Positions 2,286-56,043 of a stretch of DNA of 64,000 nt are shown piece after piece. Origin of the DNA: Bacteroidota bacterium (GTDB lineage: Bacteria > Bacteroidota > Bacteroidia > Bacteroidales > UBA12481); contig JABHCC010000149.1 of the NCBI GenBank assembly GCA_018669475.1, forward strand, positions 79,137 to 143,136, given 5' to 3'. A program made the translations under genes and the position numbers. Position 1 is the stretch's first letter. The number at the start of each line of letters is the position of its first letter. The notes under the pieces were generated by a model. The model was given only the letters and a program-made list of their open reading frames with translations, did not search any database and was not told where the DNA came from.

Positions 2286-2366
2286 TTTTTCTAGCTTAGA
2301 TGATTTATTATGCAATTTATTATGACATAAAGTTACTTTGACTTGTTCTGGCACGAGATGGCGAAT

Positions 2367-2417
2367 TTGTCCAAATAAGAGGGGCAGAATGTCCGAACAC
2401 GAAAATACTTGCCCAAA
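2367..2417. promoter_or_regulatory. three direct repeats (TTGTCCAAA / ATGTCCGAA / TTGCCCAAA) in a divergent promoter region
   Basis: Three 9-bp repeats start at 2367, 2389 and 2409, so they are spaced 22 and 20 bp apart, about two helical turns. They lie in the divergent intergenic region between the SusE/F-SusC operon (start 2285) and the esterase gene (start 2472). Direct repeats at this spacing are typical of AraC-type or hybrid two-component regulators controlling Bacteroidota glycan loci. No such regulator is visible in the window, so the assignment is inference. Confidence 0.4.
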
Positions 2418-2471
2418 CGAATAAAAACCAATAGAGCATTATGCATATTTATGATGAATTATACAGAAACT

Positions 2472-4962: not shown

Positions 4963-5235
4963 GGTTTTACATCTTAGTACAATATTACGATGTAATATTA
5001 TGATGAGTCTAAGTTTATCCTTGTTTAATTTCAATAATACACATATCTGCTGATAAGTGCCTTTAGTTTTGGTAGGTAAATATTCTTAGAATGGGTATTG
5101 ATAAAAAATTAACAATTCATAAGCTATACATTTAAAGCAACTTATTGTAGATTCTGTTAATTTGTAACCTTTGTGACAGTTTCTGTTTTTTGCTGTTATT
5201 AGTTTCGCAACAAATTTTAATTAATAAGCGTCATT

Positions 5236-6441
5236 ATGAAGAGATTAAATTATTTGTTGGCAATTTTATTTGTCGCATACCTTTTTACCAGCTGTAAACC
5301 AGATGAGGTACCTGATGCAGGTTCAAGCACAACTGATTTGCTGGTGAAAAAATTTACTGAAGCACCAGTTATGGATGCTACAATTGAAGACATGTGGGCA
5401 GGCGCCCAAAAATTAGTAGGATCTACAACTGTACCTCAACTAAATGCCCGTGGAACCCATTTAAATGGTGATGGTGAAGGTGTTGAAGAAGCATTAGGAT
5501 TATTTGATCCTTATTCCGGGGAATCATATGACTTCACTATGCGTGCTGGTTACTCAGGAAGTGATATCTATTTCTTATTAGAGTGGGAAGATGAAGCAGA
5601 CAGCAAAGATCGTCAGTCATGGTATTTTGATACTGATGATAAACTGTGGAAGGGTGAGCACAAGTATGCAAACCATATCGATGATAAATTTTACGAAGAC
5701 AAATTTGCTTTCTTATTTCCTATTGGCGAAGTAGAAGGATTCAGTTCTTCAACTTGTTATGCTACTTGCCATACTTCGACACCTGTTGTTAATGCTAAAG
5801 ATAAGCATACACGTCACTATTTGAATAACGAAGATGAAAAGATAGACATGTGGCACTGGAAGCGTGTTAGAGGTACTTATTTAGGTCAGGTTGATGATCA
5901 GAAAATGCTTTATGCTGATCCTTCAAAAGGTTCTGCTGCAAATGGAAGAACCGGTGATGGTACAGGAGAAGGTGGATACTCAAGCAATGGTCAAACTCTC
6001 ACTATCACAGGAACAGCGATTGAGGTTAGTGTGCCTTTATACATTATTCCTAATCAAACTGATTATTACTGGATTGACCAGGATCAAATTGATAATGGTA
6101 CAGCCAAGATGATTACTGCAGTTGATGAAAATGGTGTTCTTTCATACGATGGTGGTACAATTAATCCTGCTGATGGTGGATATGAGCAAGGAATTGGCAA
6201 CAAGCGCTTTCCAAGTGTTACTACAAAGGCTTTCACTTTAGGTCGTGCTGATATCAGTATCTCAGCGAATTACACTGGTACAGGTTGGGTTTGTGAATTT
6301 ACCCGCAAATTAAACACTGGTGATGAAGACGATGTAATATTTGACGTAACTCAGGAATTGCCATTTGGTTTTGCCATTTTTAATAACGCGGCTATTGCTC
6401 ACGGTGTTAAAGCTGGTTTGATGATGAAATTTGAAGAGTAG
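5236..6441 (+). CDS. ethylbenzene-dehydrogenase-type heme-binding lipoprotein with CX3CH motif
   Basis: A lipoprotein signal (MKRLNYLLAILFVAYLFTSC) is followed by an EB_dh-type heme-binding beta-sandwich of the kind found in DMSO-reductase-family gamma subunits and related cytochromes. At about residues 176-181 the sequence reads CYATCH, a heme-c-like motif with three, not two, residues between the cysteines. Other features are YDFTMRAGYSGSDIYFLLEWEDEADSKDR early and a W-H-W patch after the heme site. Family knowledge suggests periplasmic or outer-surface electron transfer. No oxidoreductase partner lies nearby, so its role is open. It is a single-gene unit, followed by a strong bidirectional terminator. 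Confidence 0.7.
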   Translation: MKRLNYLLAILFVAYLFTSCKPDEVPDAGSSTTDLLVKKFTEAPVMDATIEDMWAGAQKLVGSTTVPQLNARGTHLNGDGEGVEEALGLFDPYSGESYDFTMRAGYSGSDIYFLLEWEDEADSKDRQSWYFDTDDKLWKGEHKYANHIDDKFYEDKFAFLFPIGEVEGFSSSTCYATCHTSTPVVNAKDKHTRHYLNNEDEKIDMWHWKRVRGTYLGQVDDQKMLYADPSKGSAANGRTGDGTGEGGYSSNGQTLTITGTAIEVSVPLYIIPNQTDYYWIDQDQIDNGTAKMITAVDENGVLSYDGGTINPADGGYEQGIGNKRFPSVTTKAFTLGRADISISANYTGTGWVCEFTRKLNTGDEDDVIFDVTQELPFGFAIFNNAAIAHGVKAGLMMKFEE

Positions 6442-6501
6442 AATATACTTATAAGCTCATATCCAATTGCCGGATATAATAGGTTTGGAATATATTTGGA
6501 G

Positions 6502-6537
6502 ATAAACAAAGTCCGCTAAACAGCGGACTTTGTTTAT
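6502..6537. terminator. perfect 16-bp stem-loop, bidirectional terminator
   Basis: Arms 6502-6517 (ATAAACAAAGTCCGCT) and 6522-6537 are exact inverted complements with a 4-base loop. The GC-rich core is flanked by T-rich arms on both strands. It separates the EB_dh gene from the arsR operon. Confidence 0.85.
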
Positions 6538-6565
6538 TCATCGTTATAACAAAATAAAAAAGTTG

Positions 6566-6592
6566 TATCTTTGTTCGTGTTTTAACGAACAA
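6566..6592 (+). promoter_or_regulatory. arsR promoter -7 element with overlapping ArsR operator
   Basis: TATCTTTG (6566-6573) matches the Bacteroidota -7 consensus TAnnTTTG. It runs directly into an inverted repeat TTGTTCGT-N6-ACGAACAA (6571-6592), ending 3 bp before the arsR start codon at 6596. The core GTTCG-N8-CGAAC occurs again before the next gene. The overlap of promoter and palindrome is the usual autorepression layout of ArsR/SmtB regulators. Confidence 0.75.
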
Positions 6593-6595
6593 GTA

Positions 6596-6895
6596 ATGGC
6601 GAAAGTAAAAGGACCCACACCTGAGCAACAGATAACAGCAAGATATGCGAAGGCACTTGGTCATCCGGTCAGGGTATATGTTATTCAATTATTGTCTAGT
6701 CAGACGTGTTGCTACAGTGGAGACTTATCTGAAGAATTACCTATCGCTAAATCAACTCTTTCTCAGCACTTAAAAGAGCTGAAAGACGCCGGATTAATTC
6801 AGGGTGAAATAGAAGCACCCAGAATTAAGTATTGTTTAAATAAGGAAAACTGGGAGGAAGCAAAACGATTGCTTCGAATTACTTTCAACATGTAA
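6596..6895 (+). CDS. arsR: ArsR/SmtB-family metalloid-responsive repressor
   Basis: This 99-residue winged-helix protein has ARYAKALGHPVRVYVIQLL (helices 1-2), ELPIAKSTLSQHLKELKDAG (recognition helix-turn-helix) and a C-terminal wing. A vicinal Cys38-Cys39 pair (QTCCYSGD) sits just before the DNA-binding helices, where many ArsR proteins coordinate As(III) or Sb(III). The ATG start is chosen because the frame upstream runs through the operator and terminator. It is first gene of a five-gene operon with thiol proteins and two permeases, which it probably represses until metalloid binds. The metal specificity is inferred from the neighbours. Confidence 0.88.
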   Translation: MAKVKGPTPEQQITARYAKALGHPVRVYVIQLLSSQTCCYSGDLSEELPIAKSTLSQHLKELKDAGLIQGEIEAPRIKYCLNKENWEEAKRLLRITFNM

Positions 6896-6912
6896 AATTT
6901 TTTAAATACAGT

Positions 6913-6930
6913 GTTCGTGATTTTGCGAAC
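6913..6930 (+). promoter_or_regulatory. second ArsR operator copy upstream of the arsE-like gene
   Basis: GTTCGTGATTTTGCGAAC has the same GTTCG-N8-CGAAC architecture as the arsR operator at 6573-6590 and matches it at most positions. A further ACGAACA half site follows at 6932-6938. It lies in the 59-bp gap between arsR and the next gene, so the downstream genes may have their own ArsR-controlled promoter. Confidence 0.6.
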
Positions 6931-6954
6931 TACGAACAGATAAATAAAGCGAAA

Positions 6955-7188
6955 ATGGATATCAAAGTTTTAGGAACGGGTTGTCAGAAGTGTCAGTCTC
7001 TGGAAAAAGCAATCAGGGAGGTTGTGAGCGAAAATGGCATTCAGGCAAATGTCACAAAAGTGGAGGATATTGTTGAGATTATGGGTTTTGGCGTTATGGC
7101 TACTCCGGCCATTGTGGTAGATGGGATAGTTATGATCAAAGGAAGGGTTCCATCCTCGAAAGAAATAAAAACACTGTTAATCAAGTAA
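6955..7188 (+). CDS. small thioredoxin-like redox protein (ArsE-like, TM0996/MTH895 family)
   Basis: A 77-residue cytosolic glutaredoxin/thioredoxin-fold protein. The active site is CQKC at residues 10-13 (GTGCQKCQSLEKAI), followed by the conserved cis-Pro region MATPAIVVDG. No signal peptide. The family is often encoded with DsbD/CcdA-like permeases, and in arsEFG-type operons it corresponds to ArsE. Role: probably supplies electrons or binds trivalent arsenic for the efflux proteins encoded next. It is 11 bp upstream of the arsF-like gene. Confidence 0.75.
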   Translation: MDIKVLGTGCQKCQSLEKAIREVVSENGIQANVTKVEDIVEIMGFGVMATPAIVVDGIVMIKGRVPSSKEIKTLLIK

Positions 7189-7199
7189 ATAACTTAGCT

Positions 7200-7640
7200 A
7201 TGAAACAATCTATTCATCTAATTGGACTGGTTTTACTGTTTACAGTATTTAGCCTACCTACAGGAAACGTTCAAGCATTGTGTCTTTCTAATGGTGAAAA
7301 AGGGTGTAACTATCTGTATGACAATTTGGACTCCAAAGAAATACAAGTTCTGTATTTTCATGCTACCGGCCGATGTGTAACATGCAAAGCTGTTGAAGCA
7401 GTTACAAAAAGTGCACTTAAGGAATACTATGGGAAGAAAATTCCATTTACAACCATTAACCGAGAGAAAAACAAGAAGAATCCATTACTTAAGAAGTACA
7501 AGATTACAGGACAAACTCTCCTAATTGTTAGTGGTGATGAAGTTGTAAATATTACGACCGAGGCATTTTTAAACGCACGAAAAAAGCCTGAGAAGCTAAA
7601 GTCAACTCTGAAATCTACAATCGATAAAATGCTCAAGTAG
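7200..7640 (+). CDS. exported thioredoxin-like protein, ArsF-like
   Basis: A signal peptide (MKQSIHLIGLVLLFTVFSLPTGNVQA) precedes a thioredoxin fold with CVTC active site in ATGRCVTCKAVEAV (about residues 59-62) and a basic C-terminus. Size and placement between an ArsE-like redoxin and a DsbD-like permease match the ArsF protein of aromatic-arsenical resistance operons. A general periplasmic thiol reductase is the alternative. Its stop codon lies only 2 bp before the next start, which indicates coupled translation. Confidence 0.65.
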   Translation: MKQSIHLIGLVLLFTVFSLPTGNVQALCLSNGEKGCNYLYDNLDSKEIQVLYFHATGRCVTCKAVEAVTKSALKEYYGKKIPFTTINREKNKKNPLLKKYKITGQTLLIVSGDEVVNITTEAFLNARKKPEKLKSTLKSTIDKMLK

Positions 7641-7642
7641 AA

Positions 7643-8341
7643 ATGGAGTTTTTGCAAAATCTGTTGGAAAGCTCACAATTTCCAATACTTACCTCTTTTG
7701 TTCTAGGCCTTATGACAGCGATAAGCCCCTGTCCTTTAGCTACCAATATTACAGCAATAGGCTTTATTAGCAAGGATCTGGAAGATAAAAAAAAGGTATT
7801 TCTGAATGGCTTAGTTTATACATTAGGAAGGGGAATCTCTTATACAATTATCGGATTGCTATTTTATTTTAGCATTGGACAATTCGAGCTGTCTGGTTTT
7901 TTGCAAAATTGGGGTGAAAAGATTCTTGGTCCCTTGATGCTAATTATTGGCCTCTTCATGCTTGGTGTGATTCATTTACGTATACCTGGGATAGCTTCAC
8001 TAACTGAGAAAATGGAGAGAAAATCAAATTCCGGATTCTGGGGAGTTTTGTTTTTAGGTATGGTCTTTGCCCTTGCTTTTTGCCCATATAGTGGTGTTCT
8101 ATATTTCGGAATGTTGATTCCAATAACCATCAGCAGTGCAAGTGGATTATATCTTCCTCTGATTTTTGCTTTAGGCACTGGAATTCCAGTTATCATTTTT
8201 GCATGGCTAATTGCTTTTAGCATTGGAAAAATCGGAGGTTTGTATAATGGCATTAAAATTTTTGAGAAATGGTTTAGAAAGATAGTTGCTGTTTTATTTA
8301 TCGGGGTTGGATTATTTTATATTATCAGATTATTTCTTTAG
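7643..8341 (+). CDS. CcdA/DsbD-like membrane protein, ArsG-like efflux permease
   Basis: 232 residues with six predicted membrane helices. Conserved cysteines lie in helix 1 (AISPCPLATNITAIGF) and helix 4 (LAFCPYSGVLYFGM), the thiol pair that DsbD-type transporters use to pass electrons. In arsEFG-like operons the homologue is annotated as an efflux permease for aromatic trivalent arsenicals. A plain cytochrome-c-biogenesis electron transporter is the alternative. The arsR and redoxin context favours the arsenical assignment. Confidence 0.7.
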   Translation: MEFLQNLLESSQFPILTSFVLGLMTAISPCPLATNITAIGFISKDLEDKKKVFLNGLVYTLGRGISYTIIGLLFYFSIGQFELSGFLQNWGEKILGPLMLIIGLFMLGVIHLRIPGIASLTEKMERKSNSGFWGVLFLGMVFALAFCPYSGVLYFGMLIPITISSASGLYLPLIFALGTGIPVIIFAWLIAFSIGKIGGLYNGIKIFEKWFRKIVAVLFIGVGLFYIIRLFL

Positions 8342-8392
8342 AATTTATCGTTTTTGGGCTGAATATTTTGCTGACTAATATTTTCAATTGTC

Positions 8393-9709
8393 ATGGGATG
8401 GAAGAAGGAAATTAAGACCCTGTTATGGATTGGGGCTGTTTTTATCGGAGTTTATTTTTTACCACTGGAGAGTAAACATTTTGCCACGGCATTAGCAGCA
8501 ACACTTGATCTGGCTAAATGGTACGCCAGGGAGCATGTAATTTTATGTCTCTTGCCTGCATTCTTTATAGCCGGAGTGATTTCTGTTTTTGTGAGCCAGG
8601 GAGCCGTGATGAAGTATTTTGGCGCCAAGGCTAAAAAGTGGTTAGCCTATACGATTGCATCATTGTCGGGAACTATTTTAGCGGTTTGTAGTTGCACAAT
8701 TTTGCCCCTTTTTTCAAGTATTCACAAACGTGGTGCCGGATTAGGGCCTGCTATAGCATTTTTGTACTCTGGTCCGGCGATAAACATTTTGGCCATTATT
8801 CTAACAGCCAGGATTCTTGGCTTCGAAATGGGCCTTGCACGAATCATAGGTGCAGTGGTTTTTGCCATTGTCATTGGGTCGGCAATGTCGCTTATTTACC
8901 GTAAGGAAGAAAAGACCAAGCGTGAAGAGCAAATAAATTTTCCTGATGTTGAAGAGAAGCGGCCCATGTGGAAAACCGCTTTCCATTTTTTTGTTTTAGT
9001 TCTGATTCTTGTTTTTGCCAATTGGGGTAAACCCGCTGAAGGTGTAAGCAGCGGCTCCTGGTATTGGCTCTGGGCTAACAAATGGTTGATAACAGGAGGC
9101 TTTGCCCTATTATTGAGTTTCTCATTAATATATATATTGAAGCTGCAATGGATGCAAGTGCTTATTCTGATACTTCTAACAATTACGTCAGGCTTTCTTT
9201 TTACTTCTCCGCTAATTCCTGTTTTAGTGGCAATGGCAGGTCTGAGTATTATAACCCTGCTGGATAAAAATGATGTTGATAACAGAGAGTGGACTCTTGC
9301 TTCATGGGGCTTTGCGAAGCAGATCATGCCCTTACTTGCGGTTGGGGTCTTGATTGCTGGTTTCCTTTTAGGATCTACACATGATGACACTGCTATTGCC
9401 GGAATTATTCCAAACGATTGGATTGCCACCTTGGTGGGAGGAAATTCAGTGTTTTCTAATCTTTTTGCATCTATTATTGGGGCATTCATGTATTTTGCAA
9501 CTTTAACAGAAGTGCCGATTTTGCAAGGACTTATTTCGGCAGGAATGGGAAAAGGCCCCGCATTGGCTTTACTCTTGGCCGGACCATCTTTGTCTTTGCC
9601 AAATATGCTGGTTATCCGGGGTGTACTGGGCACTCAGAAAACAATTGTTTACGTGGTTTTAGTTGTAATTATGGCAACAATTTCAGGATTAATTTTTGGC
9701 GCTATTTAG
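8393..9709 (+). CDS. DUF318/ArsP-YraQ family permease
   Basis: 438 residues with about 10 hydrophobic helices. Two internal repeats carry the family signatures AVCSCTILPLFSSIHKRGAG with FLYSGPAINI (about 100-130) and TEVPILQGLISAGMGKGPAL with LLAGPSLSLPN (about 370-405). The family includes ArsP, which exports trivalent organoarsenicals, and conserved cysteines in the VCSCT motif are present. It is the last gene of the arsR operon, 51 bp after the ArsG-like gene, and likely provides the second efflux route. The substrate is inferred from context. Confidence 0.8.
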   Translation: MGWKKEIKTLLWIGAVFIGVYFLPLESKHFATALAATLDLAKWYAREHVILCLLPAFFIAGVISVFVSQGAVMKYFGAKAKKWLAYTIASLSGTILAVCSCTILPLFSSIHKRGAGLGPAIAFLYSGPAINILAIILTARILGFEMGLARIIGAVVFAIVIGSAMSLIYRKEEKTKREEQINFPDVEEKRPMWKTAFHFFVLVLILVFANWGKPAEGVSSGSWYWLWANKWLITGGFALLLSFSLIYILKLQWMQVLILILLTITSGFLFTSPLIPVLVAMAGLSIITLLDKNDVDNREWTLASWGFAKQIMPLLAVGVLIAGFLLGSTHDDTAIAGIIPNDWIATLVGGNSVFSNLFASIIGAFMYFATLTEVPILQGLISAGMGKGPALALLLAGPSLSLPNMLVIRGVLGTQKTIVYVVLVVIMATISGLIFGAI

Positions 9710-44696: not shown

Positions 44697-44972
44697 TTAT
44701 TCTTCTTCAGGTGGTGGGTCTTTTTTAAACAATCTACCTTGAAAATTCGCACCAGTTTCATTACCACAACACGTTACCGTATATGGATATACTTCCATGT
44801 AGTCAGTAGACCAATATTCCATTTCCAAGGTATTAGGATTTATAGTTTGAGGACATGAGGCTCCGCTACAACTACCTGATTCTTCAAAAGCAAGTCTAAA
44901 AGAAGAGCTACCAAAAAGAATGACACCACAGCTAAACAAAGTTAGCGCTACTAGAAGAAAGTTCTTTTTCAT
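44697..44972 (-). CDS. small exported cysteine-rich protein C (NVEALA-like precursor)
   Basis: 91 residues. A hydrophobic signal (MKKNFLLVALTLFSCGVILFGSSSF) precedes a Cys-rich part with CSGASC, NPNTLEMEY, STDY and TVTCCGN, then a basic-acidic tail KKDPPPEEE. It is clearly paralogous to the protein at 45292-45561 (CSGxxC, NPxT, YxTD, P[FY]xVxCC) and shares the proline-glutamate C-terminus with the protein at 49794. Size, Cys content and location beside 6-bladed propeller genes recall the NVEALA group of Bacteroidota small exported proteins, whose function is unknown. Its 5' leader DNA is conserved with that of its paralogue. Confidence 0.7.
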   Translation of the reverse strand: MKKNFLLVALTLFSCGVILFGSSSFRLAFEESGSCSGASCPQTINPNTLEMEYWSTDYMEVYPYTVTCCGNETGANFQGRLFKKDPPPEEE

Positions 44973-45030
44973 AATTATTGAATTTGATTGTAATCGGAAA
45001 ATATTTGGCTCCGAGATACTTTTAGTTTAG
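44971..45030 (-). repeat. conserved upstream leader of peptide gene C (partner of 45560-45618)
   Basis: Read on the minus strand, TCTCGGA(A)GCC, ATTTTCCGAT and AATCAAATTCAATAATTATG occur in the same order before both paralogous peptide genes, with small insertions. It marks a tandem duplication that included the regulatory region. The rest of the 318-bp gap to 45291 shows no supported gene; a 42-codon plus-strand ORF near 45205 has no recognisable product. Confidence 0.6.
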
Positions 45031-45291
45031 TGAAAATTTACAATTTGAGAGGTTTTCTGTACTAAATTACACTTCTTTACTGTTTTTAACGGCTATTATT
45101 TTTGTGATAATTTTATTAAACATCTAAATATCCATTACATCAAATAGAAACATAAATAAGCCATTGGTAATGGTCAATTTTTGTGACTCTAATCAATTTA
45201 TTTTATGAGGAACAAAAAGAAATCCAACGGTAACCTTGATCCTTTTCACTGGATTCCTGGAAGCTATGTTAGGTTTAGTACAATCTTAAAA

Positions 45292-45561
45292 TTAATTTCC
45301 CGTTGGAATAAATTCGAGGTCACATCCTGATTCATCTGGGATACAATCATTTGCGCAACACACTTTAAAAGGAGGACCGGTAACAAAGTCCGTTTTGTAA
45401 TAAGTGGAATCTCCGGTGGAAGGATTGTAGCCCTGAAGACAAGCATCTCCAGAACATGTACCTTCTTCCTCAATAGGAGGGGATCCAAAAGATGAGCTAC
45501 CAAAAAAAACTACACCAAAGCTAAACAAAGCTAGCGCTAGAATAAGAAGATTCTTCTTCAT
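45292..45561 (-). CDS. small exported cysteine-rich protein B (NVEALA-like precursor)
   Basis: 89 residues: signal MKKNLLILALALFSFGVVFFGSSSFG, then an acidic patch (PPIEEEG) and six cysteines in CSGDAC, VCCANDC and SGC. The Cys pattern and TDF...PPFKVCC match the neighbour at 44697-44972. It starts 54 bp after the propeller gene stop and is probably in the same operon. Disulfide formation after export is likely, which fits the thioredoxin-like genes in the cluster. No known toxin or bacteriocin signature was recognised. Confidence 0.7.
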   Translation of the reverse strand: MKKNLLILALALFSFGVVFFGSSSFGSPPIEEEGTCSGDACLQGYNPSTGDSTYYKTDFVTGPPFKVCCANDCIPDESGCDLEFIPTGN

Positions 45562-45615
45562 AATTATTGAATTTGATTTATCGGAAAATTGAAGGCTTCC
45601 GAGATGCCTTTGAGT

Positions 45616-46767
45616 TTAATACAAACTTTCTATTTGGAAGGTTATCAGTATTGGATTGTCGTTTTTTGTAATTTTCAAATGATCATATCTTTGAGTTAAT
45701 TCATTGAATCTCACAAAATCCTCAGCATCAACAATAGCATAGATACACCCATTTTCTTTCATCCCCCAAACATTACAAGGTGGTAATAAACCATGATCAA
45801 TGTAGTTTTTAAGACTGTAGGTTTTCTTGTCATTAAAAGAATAAAATATGGTAATTCCATAATCACCATAAGCAGCAGTAATCATCAATATATGCTTGTT
45901 TGAATAAACACTTAATAGACTACCGACCTTGTTCTCATAGCTGTGATGAACTAATGAAATGAGGTCATCTATCGAAAGTTTTTCCCATTGTTCAGATGAT
46001 ATCGCAGCATTACCGAAATCTAGTGCATATTTAATTCTGTAAGTATCATCTATTAATTCACAAATATTATAGCTCAAAGGAGCAATAAAGAGAATCTGAT
46101 CAGAGGAAATATCAACAGGGCTCATGAGATTATATGCACCCTTATTTTCCTCTAAAAAGATCTCTAGGTTCTTTGCTCGTGAAATATCTTCAGTATAAAG
46201 AGAATATGTTGTAAGTCTCTTTTCTCCTTTAGAATTTGTAAATCCCTGTATATTATAGACTAATAGTGTATCTATCCCAACAGGAAAAAAGTCCATCATA
46301 AAAAGATTCGGGTATGGTTTGGAATCAATAAAATTGCAATTAAGGTCAAATTCCACAATTGATTTTTGCCCTTGATCCCACATTGAAATCGTTGAATCTC
46401 TTTTATTAATACTCATAGCTGCTGGCCACACAACCTCCCCAGGGCCTTTACCTAAAGTTGTCTTTGAAACTAATTTTCCGACTGTATCAAATACAAACAT
46501 CGATCTACTTCGGTGCTTATCAAGTATTATGATCCTGTTATTCCATAAATCCACATCTTTAATGTAGCCAATCAAACAATTATCGGATGTTTCAAGAGGA
46601 ATAACATCCTTGATCACTAGCTCCTTCTCAATTTGTGTTTCTGTGATGTCAACTTTGATAACCTGAAATTTGTCATTCTGAGGGCCAGTTAAAGGATCAC
46701 AAGAATATAAAATACAACATATCAAAAATGATATCAATACGGGCAAAATGGAAGCGTACCTGTTCAT
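45616..46767 (-). CDS. 6-bladed beta-propeller lipoprotein (module B)
   Basis: Lipoprotein signal MNRYASILPVLISFLICC with lipobox Cys in ILYSCDP. The rest is a 6-bladed propeller of the type common in Bacteroidota: DVDLWNNRIIILDKHRSRSMFVFDTVG, TLGKGPGEVVWP (the conserved G-x-G-P-G-E turn) and SMWDQGQKSIVEFDLNCNF. The propeller with 425 residues at 48421 is a distant paralogue. The family function is unknown; it could bind the small exported proteins encoded beside it. It follows the thioredoxin-like gene by 35 bp. Confidence 0.85.
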   Translation of the reverse strand: MNRYASILPVLISFLICCILYSCDPLTGPQNDKFQVIKVDITETQIEKELVIKDVIPLETSDNCLIGYIKDVDLWNNRIIILDKHRSRSMFVFDTVGKLVSKTTLGKGPGEVVWPAAMSINKRDSTISMWDQGQKSIVEFDLNCNFIDSKPYPNLFMMDFFPVGIDTLLVYNIQGFTNSKGEKRLTTYSLYTEDISRAKNLEIFLEENKGAYNLMSPVDISSDQILFIAPLSYNICELIDDTYRIKYALDFGNAAISSEQWEKLSIDDLISLVHHSYENKVGSLLSVYSNKHILMITAAYGDYGITIFYSFNDKKTYSLKNYIDHGLLPPCNVWGMKENGCIYAIVDAEDFVRFNELTQRYDHLKITKNDNPILITFQIESLY

Positions 46768-46802
46768 AATTTGTTAAATTCTATATTTGTAGTAGTGTTT
46801 GA

Positions 46803-47429
46803 CTACCATTGTTCATCATCAAATAATTTCCTTATTCTACTCAAATAGATCGAGTTGAGTTCATCATTCTCTTCAGCAAAGAATGGGAAACTAACTTTTA
46901 ACTCTTGATTCAGTATCATGTAATATGGTTTTCTATCTGATCCCAATTTGCCTTCTATTTCAAAGTTCAACTGCCCACTGTATGAAAAGCAAGGTGACAA
47001 AATGCTATTCATATCTATTAGAATTTTCAAAATCCTTGAATTCTTACAGTCTGAAATTACAATGATATTATTGTGACCAATACTGTCACCAAGATTCTTG
47101 AGTGATGTTAAAGCACTTTCTATACAGGGGGGACAGAATTGGTTAGGAAATCGAAAGATTAGTTTTGGTGTTATTACCAGATCTTGAATGGGAATAGAGT
47201 CATTAGTTGAGTTTAATAAAAATACTGGTTGTAGTTCTTCAGAATCCATGAACATCTTCATCTTCGATCTTTTATTATAATCTTGGATTTTCTGATTTTG
47301 TATAATAAGCTCAATCTTGGTTTCATTCAAAAAGTTATTATACTTTTTTGACCTGAAGGCTAAGAATACAGATAAACCAAAGAATATTAGAACAAAAATA
47401 GAATAAAGGAAGTTATCTCTAGATTTCAT
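46803..47429 (-). CDS. membrane-tethered thioredoxin-like protein with CPPC (module B)
   Basis: A single N-terminal membrane helix (YSIFVLIFFGLSVFLAF), a coiled linker (about 30-60) and a periplasmic TlpA-like domain with FRFPNQFCPPCIESAL as active site. An in-frame GTG lies two codons upstream (47435). The domain later has VISDCKNSRIL and SPCFSY, additional cysteines. Role: thiol-disulfide exchange on exported substrates, plausibly the Cys-rich proteins of this cluster. It partners with the propeller gene that follows. Confidence 0.8.
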   Translation of the reverse strand: MKSRDNFLYSIFVLIFFGLSVFLAFRSKKYNNFLNETKIELIIQNQKIQDYNKRSKMKMFMDSEELQPVFLLNSTNDSIPIQDLVITPKLIFRFPNQFCPPCIESALTSLKNLGDSIGHNNIIVISDCKNSRILKILIDMNSILSPCFSYSGQLNFEIEGKLGSDRKPYYMILNQELKVSFPFFAEENDELNSIYLSRIRKLFDDEQW

Positions 47430-47460
47430 CTTCACTATTGAGGTTAACAGTTAAGGTAGC

Positions 47461-47690
47461 TTTGAATAACAGTAAATTACATTTGCCCCTAAAATTATTT
47501 TTGGGCGACAGTCAATGCAATATAGATGCAGATCTGGATACCCATGCTGGCTAATCTCCTGGTGAGCTTGGTAAGAAGTAGAACAAAGCATAGCTGGTCA
47601 TTTTCGAATATGGTCTCATTGATTCGTAAGCAATTCATGAACTAAATTGATATTTATAGACTCCTTGAAGACCACGAAGGTGCTTGGATT
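47461..47690 (+). pseudogene. degraded IS4-type transposase C-terminal fragment
   Basis: In one frame LPLKLFLGDSQCNI, then after a frameshift QIWIPMLANLLVSLVRSRT, KHSWSFSNMVSLIRKQF, a stop, and IDIYRLLEDHEGAW. This matches the C-terminal pattern of IS4-family transposases (FPLKYFFGDSENAI, QIWIALIANLL, WSFSNLVALIR). It carries a frameshift and stops and lacks the DDE core and the inverted ends. The remainder of this 390-bp gap (47690-47825) holds a short frame (EVKPEYQAIIDKLNEYSGF) that I cannot assign. Confidence 0.75.
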
Positions 47691-47825
47691 GCGGCAAATA
47701 AAAGTTATAAAATCAATTGCCAAGGGACGCTTTCCTCTGAAATCACGTGGACTTGGTTGCGAAGTCAAAAGAAGTAAAGCCAGAATATCAGGCAATTATT
47801 GACAAATTAAACGAATATTCCGGGT

Positions 47826-48431
47826 TTACCTGACAACAATGGTATTTGTATATAAATCAAAAATACTTTCAAAACTATTTGATGGAAAAAAAACATCCCG
47901 TATTTCCAATCTATTATTAATTGTAAAAACACAAGGCTCGGTAAAACCTTTGAAAGTCTCAAATGTTGATTGAGATTTAATGTTGAAAACACGAATGCTT
48001 ATTCTGTTTAGCCTTATGAATGATACAATATCTCTCAAAATTTGGTACTTAGTTAGTACAATTATTCTGTCCTCACCATATTTCGTGATTAGCTTTCCAA
48101 TAATTGGCATAGCCTCAATTACACATTCTCTGCAATCAACTTCCTTATAATGAAATACAATACTCCAATCATCAACAATATCTTTAAGCAAAAACTCTCT
48201 TCCTTTTAAATCAGTGACCAAGCTGTTAGCATCCATCACGGCTCCATTGAGCAATAGTGAGTTTTTCAGTCCATTAACCAATTGATTAATTTCATAATTA
48301 CAATTATTGACAATAGAACTATTTACCCTGAGGCTTGACCTCAGATCCTTTACTTTGGTTATCAACAACAGACAAATTACGATAAGAGCTGTAATTGATA
48401 TTCCGTAAACAAAGTAATACTTAGATCTCAT
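47826..48431 (-). CDS. membrane-tethered thioredoxin-like protein with CREC (module A)
   Basis: N-terminal membrane helix (YGISITALIVICLLLIT), linker, and a thioredoxin-like domain with HYKEVDCRECVIEAMP as presumed redox site, followed by IIVLTKYQILRDIV and FTINNRLEIRDVFFPS. It overlaps the preceding propeller gene by 11 bp, so the two are translationally coupled. It is a diverged paralogue of the CPPC protein at 46803. The unusual CREC dipeptide would give a different redox potential if active. Confidence 0.75.
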   Translation of the reverse strand: MRSKYYFVYGISITALIVICLLLITKVKDLRSSLRVNSSIVNNCNYEINQLVNGLKNSLLLNGAVMDANSLVTDLKGREFLLKDIVDDWSIVFHYKEVDCRECVIEAMPIIGKLITKYGEDRIIVLTKYQILRDIVSFIRLNRISIRVFNIKSQSTFETFKGFTEPCVFTINNRLEIRDVFFPSNSFESIFDLYTNTIVVR

Positions 48432-49662
48432 CTTTCTTTTGGTTGGAATTAAGTTGTACCAGGGTTATTATTGGATTGGCATTAACGTTAGAATCATAGC
48501 ATTTTTTTAGCAGTAATGAATTACTTCCAGAGACTAGGTCACTGGATACATTCTTTGATTTTGCCTCAAGATAACTCTTGCTGTTAAATGGGTATGAGTA
48601 ATCGAAAGCATACTCTTTGTCACCGCACATTACAATGCCCTTTGGCCAAAAGGGCATTCCTCCAAAAACATCATCTACAAAACCATCCACAAAGCAAAAC
48701 TCTCGCATCCATTCGCTTCTTCTTTTCATCAAATAGCTCTTTTTAGTGGATTTTGAATAAACAATATTATGAACGAGTCTGTCCTTAATTGCCTCAATAA
48801 AAATGTATTCTTTTGACTCAAAAAGATCCACTATCATTGTTTTGTGAAGGTTTTGATTAAGCAGGCTCTTATTGCGATATTCAATTCTTGACATTTTTTC
48901 AAACGTATGCGTTATTGTATATTCAGGTTTTAATAACCGATTACTACAAAGCATAAAAACTGTATCAGGTCTATAGCCATCCCATAACTTTAATCGCTCA
49001 TCCTCTAAAAAGAGAGAAAAACTACCAAGATATTCATCTTTTTTGAATTCACTATTGTGTAATTGTTGGGATACTAAATCGAGGTTCTCGTCCAATAGAA
49101 CAAAAGAATTATTGTCGTTTAAAAAGGAATACTTCCTTGAAGTAAATAAAGCACAGCACCCATCAACACCTACCTCAAAATCATTTATCAGAGTTTCAAT
49201 CTTTCGTTTTGCAATGAATGATCCATCAATAGAGTACTTTATTACCTGATGAGTCTTTCCATCCCATAAATAAATCTCCTTTGTCAAATTGCTAAACGCA
49301 GTAAAATATATCGAAACATACTCTCCAGGGCCTTGCCCTTTAACACCAATTTTTCTAATAAACTTTCCATCCCAATCAAATACAAAGATAGACTCATTCA
49401 TCTTGTCGAAAATTACGATCTCATTAGTGGTTAAGAATATCCTATCTATATCTCCAATAAAGCAGTTCTTTGAATCCTCCAATTTTATTAGTCGATAATC
49501 AAATCCAACTGAAGAAATTCTAATGCTAGTGTCCCTGCCAAATCCATTTGTTATATTGATTTGTGGAATTGCTTCTCTAGTTGTATCATTTGATAATTTC
49601 CCACAGGAAACAATAAACAAGCAACAAACAACTATCCAAAATTTACATATCATTTCTTTCAT
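48421..49662 (-). CDS. 6-bladed beta-propeller lipoprotein (module A)
   Basis: The start MKEMICKFWIVVCCLFIVSCGK is chosen for the lipobox (IVSC); an upstream in-frame codon at 49698 adds a basic leader. The propeller begins near residue 50, with IDRIFLTTNEIVIFDKMNESIFVFDWDG and RKIGVKGQGPGEYVSIYF (conserved G-x-G-P-G-E). It is about 45 residues longer than the module-B propeller. The C-terminal region carries Ser/Asn-rich loops. Same unknown-function family; gene order peptide, propeller, thioredoxin is suggestive of a functional set. Confidence 0.82.
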   Translation of the reverse strand: MKEMICKFWIVVCCLFIVSCGKLSNDTTREAIPQINITNGFGRDTSIRISSVGFDYRLIKLEDSKNCFIGDIDRIFLTTNEIVIFDKMNESIFVFDWDGKFIRKIGVKGQGPGEYVSIYFTAFSNLTKEIYLWDGKTHQVIKYSIDGSFIAKRKIETLINDFEVGVDGCCALFTSRKYSFLNDNNSFVLLDENLDLVSQQLHNSEFKKDEYLGSFSLFLEDERLKLWDGYRPDTVFMLCSNRLLKPEYTITHTFEKMSRIEYRNKSLLNQNLHKTMIVDLFESKEYIFIEAIKDRLVHNIVYSKSTKKSYLMKRRSEWMREFCFVDGFVDDVFGGMPFWPKGIVMCGDKEYAFDYSYPFNSKSYLEAKSKNVSSDLVSGSNSLLLKKCYDSNVNANPIITLVQLNSNQKKDEI

Positions 49663-49793
49663 CTTTCTATTCCTAAATATAACCCGAAAGAATATCATCA
49701 GAAGCCCCCAGAATTAGAAACTGAGGAGCTTCTGTTGCATAACCTATTATCACCTCCAGCCGACGTTATATTTGGTTAATACTTCTTCAATTA

Positions 49794-50105
49794 CTATTCT
49801 TCAGGGGGAGGATATGTTTTTCCGTTACAATTTTTGTTCAATGTTGAGGGCAAGCATCCCGTTCCTTCACAAGAAGTAAATGGATAACCTTCACTACAAT
49901 CATCAGCCATAAACTCAGCAGTAGTCATCCAGATGCATTGGTAAGTTCCTGCAGTATAGTATCCATCAATATCCATATTATAGTCACAATTGTATTCATC
50001 CGCTGCGTAGACATTGTCTACAGAAATAACCTGAACACCGTATAAGAAAGTACAAGCTGCCAGCAAAAGCAATGCCGATAATATTTTAGTTTTTTTCATT
50101 TTCAT
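49794..50105 (-). CDS. small exported cysteine-rich protein A (NVEALA-like precursor)
   Basis: 103 residues: signal MKMKKTKILSALLLLAACTFLYG, then VQVISVDNVYAADEYNC, where DNVYAA occupies the place of the NVEALA motif of that family. Seven further cysteines follow to C-terminus (DDCSEGYPFTSCEGTGCLPS, NKNCNG), and it ends YPPPEE as protein C ends in PPPEEE. It lies 21 bp after the signal peptidase gene. The NVEALA-like segment may be the processing site; this is inference. Confidence 0.7.
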   Translation of the reverse strand: MKMKKTKILSALLLLAACTFLYGVQVISVDNVYAADEYNCDYNMDIDGYYTAGTYQCIWMTTAEFMADDCSEGYPFTSCEGTGCLPSTLNKNCNGKTYPPPEE

Positions 50106-50126
50106 TTCTTTTAGTTTTAAAATTAT

Positions 50127-50978
50127 TTATTTCTGGAGGTTTTCAAAAATTAAAATACTCTTTAGTAAATCCATTGGAATAGGTCCAAAACAACGGGAAT
50201 CAATGGACTTCTCATGGTTATCTCCCAAGAGGAAGCAATAGTTCTTCTTAAAATCAAATGAGTTGATTGGGCTATTGCAACAATACAAAACACCATTTTC
50301 AATCATGATTTGTTGATTTTCGAAATGATTTGCTAAATCACTGTAATACTCCACAAACTCATGATTTACATCAACTTCCATCCCAGAATATGGTATTGCA
50401 AGCTCCATATCCCTAATTCTCTTCCATGATCCTAAGACCTTCAAATTTCCGAGATAAGGTTCCACTATCTCAATTTTCAAAAAAGAGCTATACGATTCAC
50501 GAAATTTTTTTACTGTGGAATCCGTGCAAATACATCTAATAAGTAGCAGATCTTTTACTCTGTTACAACTGGATATTTTCATCTCACTCAAATCAACACT
50601 GTCTATGTTTACTGGTTTGATGTATAATAAAACATCAATCAAACCATCAGTTAGACTTATAATTTGGTCTCTATTGACAAATACTTCATCCAAATTGGAT
50701 TGAATGATATCCCCTGATACAGCGACACACCTTTTTACCAATAAACCATGGTCAAAAGCACTGCCCCTAAGTGGATTTTCAAAAACGACAATCCTGTTAA
50801 TGATTATCCGGTCAAGTTTCTTTGACAAATTAGATAACCAACCTCTGGAACATATTATGTATTCCCCACTGAGCAATGTGGGGCTCATTGAGTTGGAATT
50901 AACTCGATAAACTGTGAATGAAAATAAAATCAAGACCAAAATCAATCCTGATAGAAGAGTAATTATTCGTTTGCTCAT
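50127..50978 (-). CDS. type I signal peptidase (S26) in the peptide locus
   Basis: The ATG at 50978 is preferred over an upstream in-frame TTG. One N-terminal membrane helix, then the catalytic Ser30 (NSNSMSPTLLSG), the Lys82 box (VKRCVAVSGD) and the GDNHEKSIDSRCFGPIP box. Between the Lys and GDN boxes is a long insert (about 150 residues). It is not the housekeeping gene by context: it opens an operon of small exported Cys-rich proteins, suggesting a dedicated processing role. Active site is complete. Confidence 0.85.
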   Translation of the reverse strand: MSKRIITLLSGLILVLILFSFTVYRVNSNSMSPTLLSGEYIICSRGWLSNLSKKLDRIIINRIVVFENPLRGSAFDHGLLVKRCVAVSGDIIQSNLDEVFVNRDQIISLTDGLIDVLLYIKPVNIDSVDLSEMKISSCNRVKDLLLIRCICTDSTVKKFRESYSSFLKIEIVEPYLGNLKVLGSWKRIRDMELAIPYSGMEVDVNHEFVEYYSDLANHFENQQIMIENGVLYCCNSPINSFDFKKNYCFLLGDNHEKSIDSRCFGPIPMDLLKSILIFENLQK

Positions 50979-52222: not shown

Positions 52223-52795
52223 ATGGATCAGTCGAAAAAATTCCCAGTATTATTAAGGGAAATCTGGGAGAAAGATGAAAATGCTACCAGAATTGCCAGG
52301 AAAGAGTTGAAATATATACTCAAATGGGTTAGAAGAGAGAAAAAAATTAAACCCAATATTCAGGATGATGATCTGGTTCAGGAGGCCCTGATTAGGTTTT
52401 ACAACAAAAAGAAATTGCCCGATCTCGACACAAAAGCAAAGACCTATTTAATGGGGATGATCAGGATGAACCTTAAAGAGGAAAGACGACTGAATAAAGA
52501 GATCCCCACACCAGAATTTTTATTGAATGGATATGGTATTGTTGAGAATTTGATTGTACTTTTCGAAAAAGATGAATCGAATACACTTCTTCAGGAAATG
52601 GTTTTTCAATTACCTCAGAAGTGTCAGGAACTCCTATATATGATGTATTATAAGGATTTTACAACAAATGAAATCTGTGAAAAGCTGGGGTATGCCTCAA
52701 TTGAGATAGTGCATAAGAAGAAGTCCCTATGTATTAAGGTATTAAGAGGCAACATGAAGGGTAATAAGGAATGTTGTTTAAATTTCGATTTATAG
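52223..52795 (+). CDS. sigma-70 family (ECF-like) RNA polymerase sigma factor
   Basis: 190 residues. Region 2 reads IQDDDLVQEALIRFYNKKKLPD...KTYLMGMIRMNLKEERR, and region 4 LPQKCQELLYMMYYKDFTTNEICEKLGYASIEIVHKKKSLCIK, with the usual HTH. It lacks an obvious region 3. It is directly followed (15 bp) by a membrane protein that probably acts as its anti-sigma factor. Target genes may include the convergent CHAT gene and the small ORF nearby; this is inference. Confidence 0.88.
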   Translation: MDQSKKFPVLLREIWEKDENATRIARKELKYILKWVRREKKIKPNIQDDDLVQEALIRFYNKKKLPDLDTKAKTYLMGMIRMNLKEERRLNKEIPTPEFLLNGYGIVENLIVLFEKDESNTLLQEMVFQLPQKCQELLYMMYYKDFTTNEICEKLGYASIEIVHKKKSLCIKVLRGNMKGNKECCLNFDL

Positions 52796-52810
52796 ATTAT
52801 TGGAGAAGCT

Positions 52811-53485
52811 ATGAACAAGGGAAAAAATACTAAAATTGATCTTGAAGATGCCCTCACAGAATTGGTTGAACTCAGGCATAATATACAAAAGGATGTGAAT
52901 CTGGGTCATGAGCTACTTGAGGAGATCAGGCGTGAAGAAAGAATCAGGAATCGTGCGATTGGAGTTGTTTCCATTGCGGCAATATTGGCCATGGCAATTT
53001 GGGTATTTGGGCCCTCATTCTTTAGACTCGATCCTGAGTTAACGTTTGAGAACTATTACTCACGCATGAACCCTGACCTGTTAACCAGAGATGGGGGAAA
53101 TGATAATATTCTGACCAAGGCAATTCAGACCTACCAACATGGAGAATCTGAGTCAGCCATTGAAATGCTTGCTTCTTCTGAGGTTCATAATATTGATAGC
53201 CAGGTTGCGGAGTTTTTCCTTTCTCTGGCTTATCTGGATTCAGGTCAAGAGAGTATGGCCAAAACTGGTTTGGAAAATCTGCACTCAGAAGGAATTTTTA
53301 TACAGCCGGAAATCTACTGGTATCTGAGCTTGATTGATCTTAAGGAAGGGGATTTTGATTCGGCAAAGCAAAACCTAAAAAGTCTGAAAAAGCTGGATGC
53401 CAGCTTTAAAAAGAAACAAGTTAGAAAATTACGTCGGAAGCTAAGGTTTCGTTATAAACCTCGTAATCTCCTGATCCCTAAATAA
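52811..53485 (+). CDS. TPR-containing single-pass membrane protein, likely anti-sigma partner
   Basis: 224 residues; GGAGAA ribosome site 3 bases before the ATG. Cytosolic amphipathic N-terminus (NTKIDLEDALTELVELRHNI, about 1-47), one membrane helix (GVVSIAAILAMAIWVFG, about 51-68), then periplasmic TPR-like repeats (AIQTYQHGESESAIEML, VAEFFLSLAYLDSGQESMA, IYWYLSLIDLKEGDFDSAKQ) and a very basic C-terminus. The position after the sigma gene is that of an anti-sigma factor, but no zinc-finger motif is present. Its last 34 bp overlap the end of the CHAT gene. Confidence 0.75.
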   Translation: MNKGKNTKIDLEDALTELVELRHNIQKDVNLGHELLEEIRREERIRNRAIGVVSIAAILAMAIWVFGPSFFRLDPELTFENYYSRMNPDLLTRDGGNDNILTKAIQTYQHGESESAIEMLASSEVHNIDSQVAEFFLSLAYLDSGQESMAKTGLENLHSEGIFIQPEIYWYLSLIDLKEGDFDSAKQNLKSLKKLDASFKKKQVRKLRRKLRFRYKPRNLLIPK

Positions 53486-56043
53486 AGGAGAAATCCAATA
53501 AAAAGGATCAGTAATCCAAATAAATATCCTGAAGTCTTTTTCTCCGATGGACCATAAAAAACGACTCCGGCCCAGTAGAAAGGATGATCTTTACCAATGC
53601 TGGCATCTTTCAAATACTTCTGACGGGCTTTTTGAAGAGCCTTGTGTCTGGCCAGGTAGCGATTTTTCATATAATAGTGGACGGAAATTTTTGTTGAAGC
53701 CTGGTTTGAGGCCTGCCACAAATGCTGAATAACCGAGCCGGCCCCGGCCATGGTATAGGCCAGGCTTAATGACATCAATCCTTCTCCATGGTTCAATGGT
53801 CCATTTCCCGAATCACAAGAATTGATGTATATGTTTGATCCCCTTATCCGTCCGAAAAGGATATCTTTAAATGTCAGTTGTTGGGTAGGAGAGGCAAGGT
53901 TACAGGATAAACCCGATTTTAAGAAGTCTTCATTGTTTGTTACCAGATGAGTGGAAATGTGAATGTTGCCATACTGTTGAATAAGCTCTTTGTAGGTATG
54001 CTGTAATTGTGGAAGGCTGATCAGACTTGGGTGTTTTAAACTTTTTCTTAAAAGCTCAATTTCTTCAGTACCCACAGTTTCGCCTGAATTTACGGAACAG
54101 GAAACCAGAAGGGTGTTTTTACGAGTTTTATTTCTCTTACCTCCAGTAAGCAAATAGGGTGTTGCCACATAGCGAATGGAATAGCTGTTCATTAGATAGA
54201 GTAGCTCTTTGAACCCTGCTGTTTTTGCCCCCACATCATCTGTTATTAATACCTCAAAAGGAAGTCCAAGGAGCACTCCATCCGGGTGAATGGCCAGGTT
54301 CTTTGAAAACAAATGATTTTTAATTGGCTTGAAAAGAGTTTCATAAATCCGAAAGGATGCATATGAAAAGGAGCTCTGATCATCCTGTTTATTCAGTCCA
54401 AACCGTGGTTCTGACAATTCAGTCTTTATAAACCTTAAATCTCTTCTTAGGCTTGAATCTACCGGAATCATTTCATAGAACCGTTCTTTTCTGTTTACGC
54501 CAAAAACTATGAAAAGAGAATCCATATCCTGATATCCCAAATAATTCTCCTTCCTGAATATTCTTGGATTTAGATAATCTGTCAGCAAATCCTCATCTAT
54601 CCGATTCCTGATCTGACTGTGTTCTTTTTGGATATACTGCTCCAGGATTTCATAATGGATAACCAGCTGACACATCCTGTTGAGTTCAGAGGTATCCATT
54701 AATGGCCGTGAGAAATCCATTATACTCTGTTTATCCATCCAATTCTGAATATCTTCCCTTATGTTTTGCAGTTTATATAGACTATCCATCGGCATCCCGG
54801 CTATCGGATATATATGATCACGCTGGGTAAGCCAGTAAAGAGATAAGGATTTCGAAACTAAAGACCATTCAAAAGCCTGATCAAGATAAGTTTTGTTATG
54901 AGTTTCTTCGTATAGCTTCAGGGAACAGTACACTCCCATCTTAAAAGCTTTAATCCATAGATTTGCCATCTGAAACCTGGTTGATTCAGAAGCATAAGCG
55001 TGAGTTAAACGTTCAATACGACTTATGGCGAACTCAATATCCTGATAGCTTTGTGATAGCCTGCCCTGCTCCAGGTAAAACATACCACGATGTACTAAAA
55101 AATCAATAAGGACTGTTTCATAGTCAGATTCTGAAGAGGTTGAATCCGGTAGTTCTGCCATCATTATATCAATGGCTTCATTGAAATGGGTTTCAGCTAA
55201 TTGGTCGTTTTGCAGCTTTTGGTAAGCCAGGGCAAGATGGAAGAGACTTTTTGCTGTCTGATATTTGTTCTCATTTGCTTTGATTGAGAGTGCTAAAGAT
55301 TTCTGCAGGTGCTCTATTCCTGATTCAATATTCTGTTGAACAAGCAAAAACTGCCCATATGTTCTGTGAGAAACAACCGGATCATAATCATCCAATTCCG
55401 ATCCGGAGGCTTGTTCAAGTTTCATCAATCTTTGGAAAGAAAGTTTTGCCAAAATTGAATCACCTGATAATGCAAATGAGTGAGCCAGGTTACTCAGGTT
55501 CTGAGCAAATTTACCTGGCTTTTCAATCGAATCAATCATAATCTGATTATATAGCAGCAAAGGCACAGCTTTATTAGCGTTATTCCGGTCAAGATATGAT
55601 GTACTGAGGTTATTAAACAGTGCCAGAATATAGTTAGAGTGTGAGTGCCTTGCATATTCTATTCCCAAGCTGTTGTTGACATCGGAAAGGAAATAATTGC
55701 CAAGCCTTTTATAAGACATACTTTTGTAATTCAGCAGGTAACAAGAATAGTACAGCCTTCCTGAATTTTTCATTTGACTGCACAAAGTAGAATTTGCTAT
55801 GGATATACACTCTTCATGTTGATCTGATTGGGTTAATAATAGAACCTTATTGCTTAATAGGTATATTTCTCTTATTGTCAGTAGTTCATTAGTTGAATCA
55901 GCTTGTTTTGCAGACTGGGGATTTTGAGCAGTTGCCAAACTGGGGGGGGTAAATGTGCTGAATACCAGAGAGATACTAATGAACAATACTCTGACAAAGA
56001 ATAATATCCTAAAAACCGGTAAGGTTTTTCCTGTTTCTGTCAT
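53452..56043 (-). CDS. exported TPR-CHAT (caspase-like) protein with C-terminal membrane anchor
   Basis: 863 residues. Signal region (VFRILFFVRVLFISISLVF), many TPR-type helices (about 45-480, e.g. HRTYGQFLLVQQNIESGIEHLQKSL), then a CHAT domain (about 560-830) with the dyad His699 (IHISTHLV) and Cys743 (YINSCDSGNG) and the trailing GEGLMSLSLAYTMAGAGSVIQHLW and HPFYWAGVVFYG. A final helix (YLFGLLILFIGFLLYLG) and basic end anchor it, so both domains would face the periplasm. CHAT proteins are cysteine peptidases of the caspase clan. It is convergent with the sigma-TPR operon. Confidence 0.9.
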   Translation of the reverse strand: MTETGKTLPVFRILFFVRVLFISISLVFSTFTPPSLATAQNPQSAKQADSTNELLTIREIYLLSNKVLLLTQSDQHEECISIANSTLCSQMKNSGRLYYSCYLLNYKSMSYKRLGNYFLSDVNNSLGIEYARHSHSNYILALFNNLSTSYLDRNNANKAVPLLLYNQIMIDSIEKPGKFAQNLSNLAHSFALSGDSILAKLSFQRLMKLEQASGSELDDYDPVVSHRTYGQFLLVQQNIESGIEHLQKSLALSIKANENKYQTAKSLFHLALAYQKLQNDQLAETHFNEAIDIMMAELPDSTSSESDYETVLIDFLVHRGMFYLEQGRLSQSYQDIEFAISRIERLTHAYASESTRFQMANLWIKAFKMGVYCSLKLYEETHNKTYLDQAFEWSLVSKSLSLYWLTQRDHIYPIAGMPMDSLYKLQNIREDIQNWMDKQSIMDFSRPLMDTSELNRMCQLVIHYEILEQYIQKEHSQIRNRIDEDLLTDYLNPRIFRKENYLGYQDMDSLFIVFGVNRKERFYEMIPVDSSLRRDLRFIKTELSEPRFGLNKQDDQSSFSYASFRIYETLFKPIKNHLFSKNLAIHPDGVLLGLPFEVLITDDVGAKTAGFKELLYLMNSYSIRYVATPYLLTGGKRNKTRKNTLLVSCSVNSGETVGTEEIELLRKSLKHPSLISLPQLQHTYKELIQQYGNIHISTHLVTNNEDFLKSGLSCNLASPTQQLTFKDILFGRIRGSNIYINSCDSGNGPLNHGEGLMSLSLAYTMAGAGSVIQHLWQASNQASTKISVHYYMKNRYLARHKALQKARQKYLKDASIGKDHPFYWAGVVFYGPSEKKTSGYLFGLLILFIGFLLYLGIRRLRGL

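Follow-up and report, generated by a model that had tools for sequence, protein, structure and literature searches.

A putative envelope module with small exported cysteine-rich proteins, thioredoxin-like proteins and β-propellers in a Bacteroidota genome

Architecture of the eight-gene module

The stretch of 64,000 nucleotides analyzed here (the window; contig JABHCC010000149.1 of a Bacteroidota bacterium, positions 79,137 to 143,136) contains a run of eight genes encoding an S26 signal peptidase, three small Cys-rich proteins, two thioredoxin-like (Trx) proteins and two six-bladed β-propellers. All eight open reading frames (ORFs) are found on the minus strand in the order given by the original prediction, and are transcribed from the S26 gene through Cys-rich protein A, propeller A, Trx A, Trx B and propeller B to Cys-rich proteins B and C:

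50127..50978, minus strand: S26 signal peptidase, 283 residues; PF10502 2e-20, TIGR02227 above cutoff
49794..50105, minus strand: Cys-rich exported protein A, 103 residues; without Pfam or NCBIfam family
48421..49665, minus strand: six-bladed β-propeller A, lipoprotein-type signal (by eye); PF17170 3.8e-31
47826..48431, minus strand: Trx A, N-terminal hydrophobic anchor, CREC motif; invariant C, C and P
46803..47420, minus strand: Trx B, N-terminal hydrophobic anchor, CPPC motif; ResA-like fold (AlphaFold model)
45616..46767, minus strand: six-bladed β-propeller B, lipoprotein-type signal (by eye); PF17170 2e-34
45292..45561, minus strand: Cys-rich exported protein B, 89 residues, 6 Cys; relatives P0017 and P0019
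44697..44972, minus strand: Cys-rich exported protein C, 91 residues, 5 Cys; paralogue of B

The module is AT-rich, with a GC content of 33.5% compared with 39.5% for the window, and the genes for propeller A and Trx A overlap by 11 bases. In a scan of the eight proteins against NCBIfam, signal peptidase I (TIGR02227) was the sole family above cutoff. A Bacteroidota-type promoter pattern matched only once in the window, no more often than expected by chance and at a place that lies outside the module.

The original prediction had taken the mirrored gene order of the A and B halves as a sign that the set was not made by simple tandem copying. The order itself is not special, as the order of parts varies among modules, and the conclusion stands for the two halves: Trx A and Trx B are only 18–19% identical, so the halves do not look like a tandem copy and on sequence grounds are old paralogues. 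Cys-rich proteins B and C, in contrast, are paralogous (phmmer 3e-19) and are preceded by similar stretches of ∼90 bases in which the 3′ end of propeller B seems to survive as a relic, and the pair therefore looks like a tandem copy. A TCGGA...TCCGA inverted repeat is also common to the two genes, shortly before the start codon of C (44961-45060) and of B (45550-45650).

The three small proteins contain a total of 7, 6, and 5 Cys residues (A, B, and C, respectively), close to the 5–8 anticipated, of which 6, 6, and 4 follow the leader; the leader of A is predicted to end between VDNVYA and ADE. None has a Pfam match above cutoff or an NCBIfam family, and the suggested resemblance to NVEALA peptides was not borne out, with a profile search returning no PF14055 match among the three proteins or in the whole genome. 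A relative of proteins B and C at L214 in genome G004 retains the pattern CSGxxC...CC. A structural model of protein B was left unused, with a predicted local distance difference test (pLDDT) score of 44. A filter for exported peptides (leader-like N terminus, at least four Cys beyond residue 28, and no overlying ORF of greater length) passed all three proteins within the 6.3 kb of the module, compared with a single ORF in 217 kb of control sequence made up of 18 loci, six of them picked after no module had been seen there; the 12 chosen by type alone also gave one passing ORF in 148 kb. A looser filter applied to regions of the window's own genome passed seven other ORFs as well (five regions and two places in the window). 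From their leaders and conserved Cys residues, the small proteins would be exported and are probably disulfide-bonded.

Trx A and Trx B have only sub-cutoff Redoxin/AhpC matches in Pfam, and both retain the CxxC motif and cis-Pro, the corresponding C, C, and P being invariant in 9/9 and 13/13 rows of the Trx alignments (A1 and A6). Both are predicted to be membrane-tethered. The fold was modelled for Trx B only (mean pLDDT 80, predicted template modelling score 0.65), revealing a ResA/TlpA-like domain behind one long helix, and ResA (4nmu) was its best match by profile and by fold. The module thus displays the features of ResA/TlpA oxidoreductases, namely a Trx fold (Trx B), CxxC, cis-Pro and an N-terminal membrane anchor; it differs from them in the low identity of Trx B to the 50 fold matches listed (9–19%) and in having no cytochrome-maturation gene among the eight. 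Fold and motif indicate thiol exchange outside the inner membrane. The propellers are of the DUF5128 type, with PF17170 scores of 119.7 and 108.9 bits against a cutoff of 22.9.

The window S26 has the features of signal peptidase I, with the catalytic Ser (NSNSMSP), the Lys (LVKRC) and the GDN..SxDSR boxes all present and conserved in alignment A2. In one tree it sits on a long end branch (3.01), with an approximately unbiased test p of 0.308 for joining the clade of NVEALA-linked S26 enzymes; a quick tree also gave it a long branch, this time among LepB paralogues. Because a search of 5.8 billion proteins returned only the enzyme itself and one weak match, it could not serve as a marker of the system. 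Elsewhere in the genome S26 occurs at a single locus, on contig C178, where three LepB-like frames follow one another.

Recurrence of the module and its neighbors

The original prediction had staked the gene set on conservation of its neighbors in other genomes, and peptide, Trx and propeller do recur together. Trx profile A1 matched in 10 of the 12 genomes of the window's family compared with 3/87 others, one of these three (G084) having supplied a seed row of the profile; G004 alone has eight Trx genes. Neighbors were counted within 3.5 kb of 29 Trx genes, 27 from the family (two of these in the window) and two from outside, with propellers required on the same strand and identified with a profile built from the DUF5128 frames of the window's own genome. 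A propeller was found near 24/29 Trx genes, the other five lying less than 420 bases from a contig end, and an exported peptide with at least four Cys near 19/29. The propellers are the constant partner in the module. S26, by comparison, was near only 4/29 Trx genes at three loci (the window, L220 of G004, and L236 of another family). The proposal of a dedicated peptidase as a core part did not hold, since among the family loci examined S26 accompanies Trx only at the window and L220. In a copy linked to moeA, synteny is kept and all four mature Cys are invariant in 10/10 and 7/7 sequences; within genus g4, mean identity is 52% and 56% for the peptides, 46% for Trx, and 65% for the propeller. 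In the window's own genome, molybdenum-cofactor-type genes (named by eye) flank a peptide–Trx–propeller–peptide arrangement at L068, and a propeller–Trx pair adjoins a CHAT gene at L060.

Three further genes lie beside the module:

52223..52795, plus strand: putative extracytoplasmic-function (ECF) sigma factor, divergent from the module; sub-cutoff Sigma70_r2/r4 matches only
52811..53485, plus strand: protein with a single transmembrane (TM) segment, putative anti-sigma factor by position and topology; no Pfam match
53452..56043, minus strand: TPR-CHAT caspase-like protein with a leader and a C-terminal hydrophobic segment; PF12770 4.8e-26

The eight-gene set is real as first described, but is probably larger, as this sigma/single-TM/CHAT trio recurs beside modules. 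Relatives of the putative sigma factor are found at L060, L227, L267, and L268, and those of the single-TM protein at the same four loci, at L219 and at others, the L060 protein having TPRs. The trio spans 52223-56043 in the window, 1229-5318 at L060 and 5326-9066 at L268; both in the window and at L268, the CHAT gene is the one towards which the sigma and single-TM genes are directed. Thirty CHAT loci were considered, 13 of them of the short type (12 frames of 790–905 residues plus a fragment, L227), and 12 of the other 17 were fetched. Modules, classed by eye as a propeller plus either Trx or a Cys peptide, adjoin short-type CHAT genes at 7/13 loci of the window's family compared with 0/12 of the other loci fetched (p 0.005); among the adjacent modules no peptide was seen at L060, L227, and L268 and no Trx match at L271, and two of the six short-type loci without a module end less than 300 bases from the CHAT gene. 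In the window's own genome both short-type CHAT genes adjoin modules, unlike the three longer ones.

Relation to NVEALA clusters

PF14055 peptides are found in 25 of the 393 genomes of the order. The loci around them contain propellers (by our own profile; PF15869 at L148), short S26 enzymes, a DUF1573 protein, for which L148 and L304 were scanned, Wzy_C proteins, several of which have TPRs, and transglutaminase-like proteins, of which one is clear and others are near or below cutoff. S26 profile A2 exceeded 300 bits in 17 genomes, 15 of them with PF14055 (p 8.8e-19), a count that is partly circular as A2 was seeded from NVEALA loci; with the seed genomes removed, PF14055 was present in 5/6 genomes of the order with S26 above 300 bits (p 2.7e-7).

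A set of 80 loci from named genomes was divided into those with short S26 (no more than 320 residues, including at least one Chlorobi S26, L331) and those with long S26. Six loci were left out of the main counts: L289 (no S26 ORF), L294 (seed genome), L297, L311, and L322, which supplied rows to the RND, MFP or ligase-like profiles, and L335, which supplied rows to RND and MFP. Short-S26 loci then exceeded long-S26 loci in NVEALA (27/37 versus 0/37), propeller (25/37 versus 0/37), O-antigen-ligase-like (30/37 versus 1/37), MFP (18/37 versus 0/37), Trx (6/37 versus 0/37), and RND (15/37 versus 0/37). The RND count was made after RND genes had already been seen at these loci, and 22/37 short-S26 loci lack RND. 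With L297, L311, L322, and L335 kept, the counts were NVEALA 28/40 versus 0/38, propeller 26/40 versus 1/38, ligase-like 33/40 versus 1/38, MFP 21/40 versus 1/38, RND 18/40 versus 1/38, and Trx 7/40 versus 1/38 (p 0.06). L335 accounts for the one long-S26 locus counted under each of propeller, Trx, MFP and RND.

In Phocaeicola vulgatus ATCC 8482 (L304, 4948-19651), genes for NVEALA, DUF1573, DUF5128, a transglutaminase-like protein (sub-cutoff) and S26 are followed on one strand by transglutaminase-like, Wzy_C, HlyD-type, AcrB-type and OEP genes, with a divergent Trans_reg_C gene. A similar run is found outside Bacteroidales in Sphingobacterium haloxyli (L322). For Bacteroides thetaiotaomicron, the entries of a table in PMC10434189 include BT0662 (O-antigen ligase), BT0664 (propeller), BT0667 (lepB), and BT0669 (RND adaptor), whose values in the second column are 0.11–0.35. 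At L321 (15695-20550), in Prevotella, seven NVEALA-profile peptides have similar leaders and variable, Cys-rich mature parts.

The window module resembles these clusters in combining a small exported Cys peptide with a DUF5128 propeller and S26, but differs in that its peptides fall outside PF14055 and have a short c-region, the stretch from hydrophobic core to cleavage site, and in that its eight genes include no DUF1573 or transglutaminase-like gene. By a rough script the c-region is 10 residues in protein A and 5 in B, with no site found in C. The same script gave a median of 21 for NVEALA peptides (60 usable of 61) and 6 for peptides of module loci (25/28 with a site), the former measured to the motif and the latter to the first AxA-like site. 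At other loci with S26 the values were 14 (L220), 22–25 in three of the four peptides of L335, and, counter to the trend, 4 and 11 for the two peptides of L101. A long core-to-cleavage stretch tends to go with a short S26, but not in the window.

L335 (Prolixibacteraceae bacterium UBA8504, 45-20264) has three peptide–propeller–Trx units together with S26 and RND/MFP genes, and is a link between the NVEALA-type cluster and the window-type module. The window shares its Cys peptide–propeller–Trx units and S26, and differs in lacking the RND/MFP genes, the DUF1573-like ORF (by eye), the 393-residue S26, and the long c-regions of L335.

A regulator lies immediately upstream of 12 of the 16 NVEALA peptides with two Cys (Trans_reg_C at eight, histidine kinase at four), in most cases divergently; the 16 include one loose regular-expression match (L295) and one peptide without upstream sequence (L293). 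The neighbor at L147 has no Pfam match and that at L302 is no regulator. For the other 61 NVEALA peptides, a divergent upstream gene was found at nine, within 700 bases at six; five of the six were scanned, in a scan that covered divergent neighbors only, and one was Trans_reg_C (L304).

Proposed function and alternatives

Taken together, these data favor, at a probability of about 0.55, a cell-envelope module that matures disulfide-bonded Cys-rich peptides, which may serve as signals. The leaders of the small proteins would likely be cut by signal peptidases and the peptide disulfides set by the tethered Trx A and Trx B. The peptides are predicted to be ligands of the two neighboring propeller lipoproteins; they may cross the outer membrane and may serve as signals in the envelope or outside the cell. 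The S26 of the window would be an optional addition that perhaps deals with the unusual leaders of B and C, and the sigma/single-TM/CHAT trio may stand in for the regulator in the window's family. The signal role is suggested by the regulator or histidine kinase beside one type of NVEALA peptide and by the RND pump in many of the clusters.

Several observations weigh against this interpretation. Profile scans of the window gave no RND or O-antigen-ligase-like match, so no route across the outer membrane is visible, and of the eight Trans_reg_C matches that underlie the signaling role, three are above the Pfam cutoff and five below it. ResA-type proteins can be reductases, and the Trx proteins may therefore undo disulfides rather than form them. 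A propeller alone says little, since DUF5128 propellers are common in the window's own genome (44 frames) and, of the regions fetched for them, no others than the window, L060 and L068 have relatives of Trx A and Trx B. Most family Trx genes have no S26 nearby, the trees do not place the window S26 in the NVEALA-linked clade, and the c-regions of A and B are short, no site having been found for C. Ten of the 29 Trx genes yield no peptide by the filter, which missed a peptide visible at L219, and the peptide at L215 lies beyond 3.5 kb.

Antagonism is a serious rival to signaling, albeit a less likely one in our estimate: the peptides would be bacteriocin-like toxins against related bacteria, with Trx forming their disulfides and the propellers providing self-immunity or acting as receptor. 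The variable mature parts behind similar leaders and the paralogue arrays of L321 and L335 would suit such a role, as would the eight Trx genes of G004 and the RND pumps of related clusters. Class II bacteriocin clusters combine a Cys peptide and a Trx-like accessory protein with a double-glycine leader and an ABC exporter. The module shares the Cys peptide and Trx-like protein, but has Sec-like leaders and propellers, and a Pfam scan found no ABC/C39 exporter among its eight genes. Furthermore, regulators adjoin one peptide type, and the moeA-linked peptides of g4 are no less conserved than Trx, although less so than the propeller; on these two points signaling is slightly preferred.

Envelope redox sensing, in which disulfide-sensor peptides retained in the periplasm would alert the sigma/CHAT trio to thiol stress by way of Trx and propeller, appears more doubtful still. 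It is consistent with the ResA/TlpA-like Trx, the conserved Cys of the peptides and the trio beside 7/13 short-type CHAT loci, but the RND pumps and variable paralogues of related clusters fit export better. That small proteins, common propellers and Trx genes are neighbors by chance, without joint function, is very improbable: propellers are indeed abundant in this genome, but the co-occurrence at 24/29 and 19/29 Trx genes, set against one ORF per 217 kb of control, and the synteny of the moeA-linked copy argue for a functional unit.

As the original prediction proposed, the system appears undescribed: no description was found in the literature searched, which excluded subscription papers and preprints, and under the same limits searches on NVEALA and on CHAT with ECF sigma and Bacteroidetes found no papers. 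Bacteroidota are major members of gut and environmental communities, and to our knowledge little is known of peptide signaling or warfare among them. A tentative and broader possibility, which we hold to be less probable than the module function itself, is a Bacteroidota peptide-communication system in which disulfide-bonded peptides would be exported by Sec, matured by dedicated peptidases and tethered Trx, and paired with propeller lipoproteins. In the NVEALA form, RND pumps would carry the peptides out; the sensors would be histidine kinases, membrane-bound regulators or, for the window's family, a relay of ECF sigma factor and CHAT caspase. The system offers candidates for peptide export by RND pumps, for a second signal peptidase class paired with a leader type of its own, and for an envelope role of CHAT caspase-like proteins; it is directly testable, since named culturable species, among them P. 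vulgatus ATCC 8482, have a related gene set.

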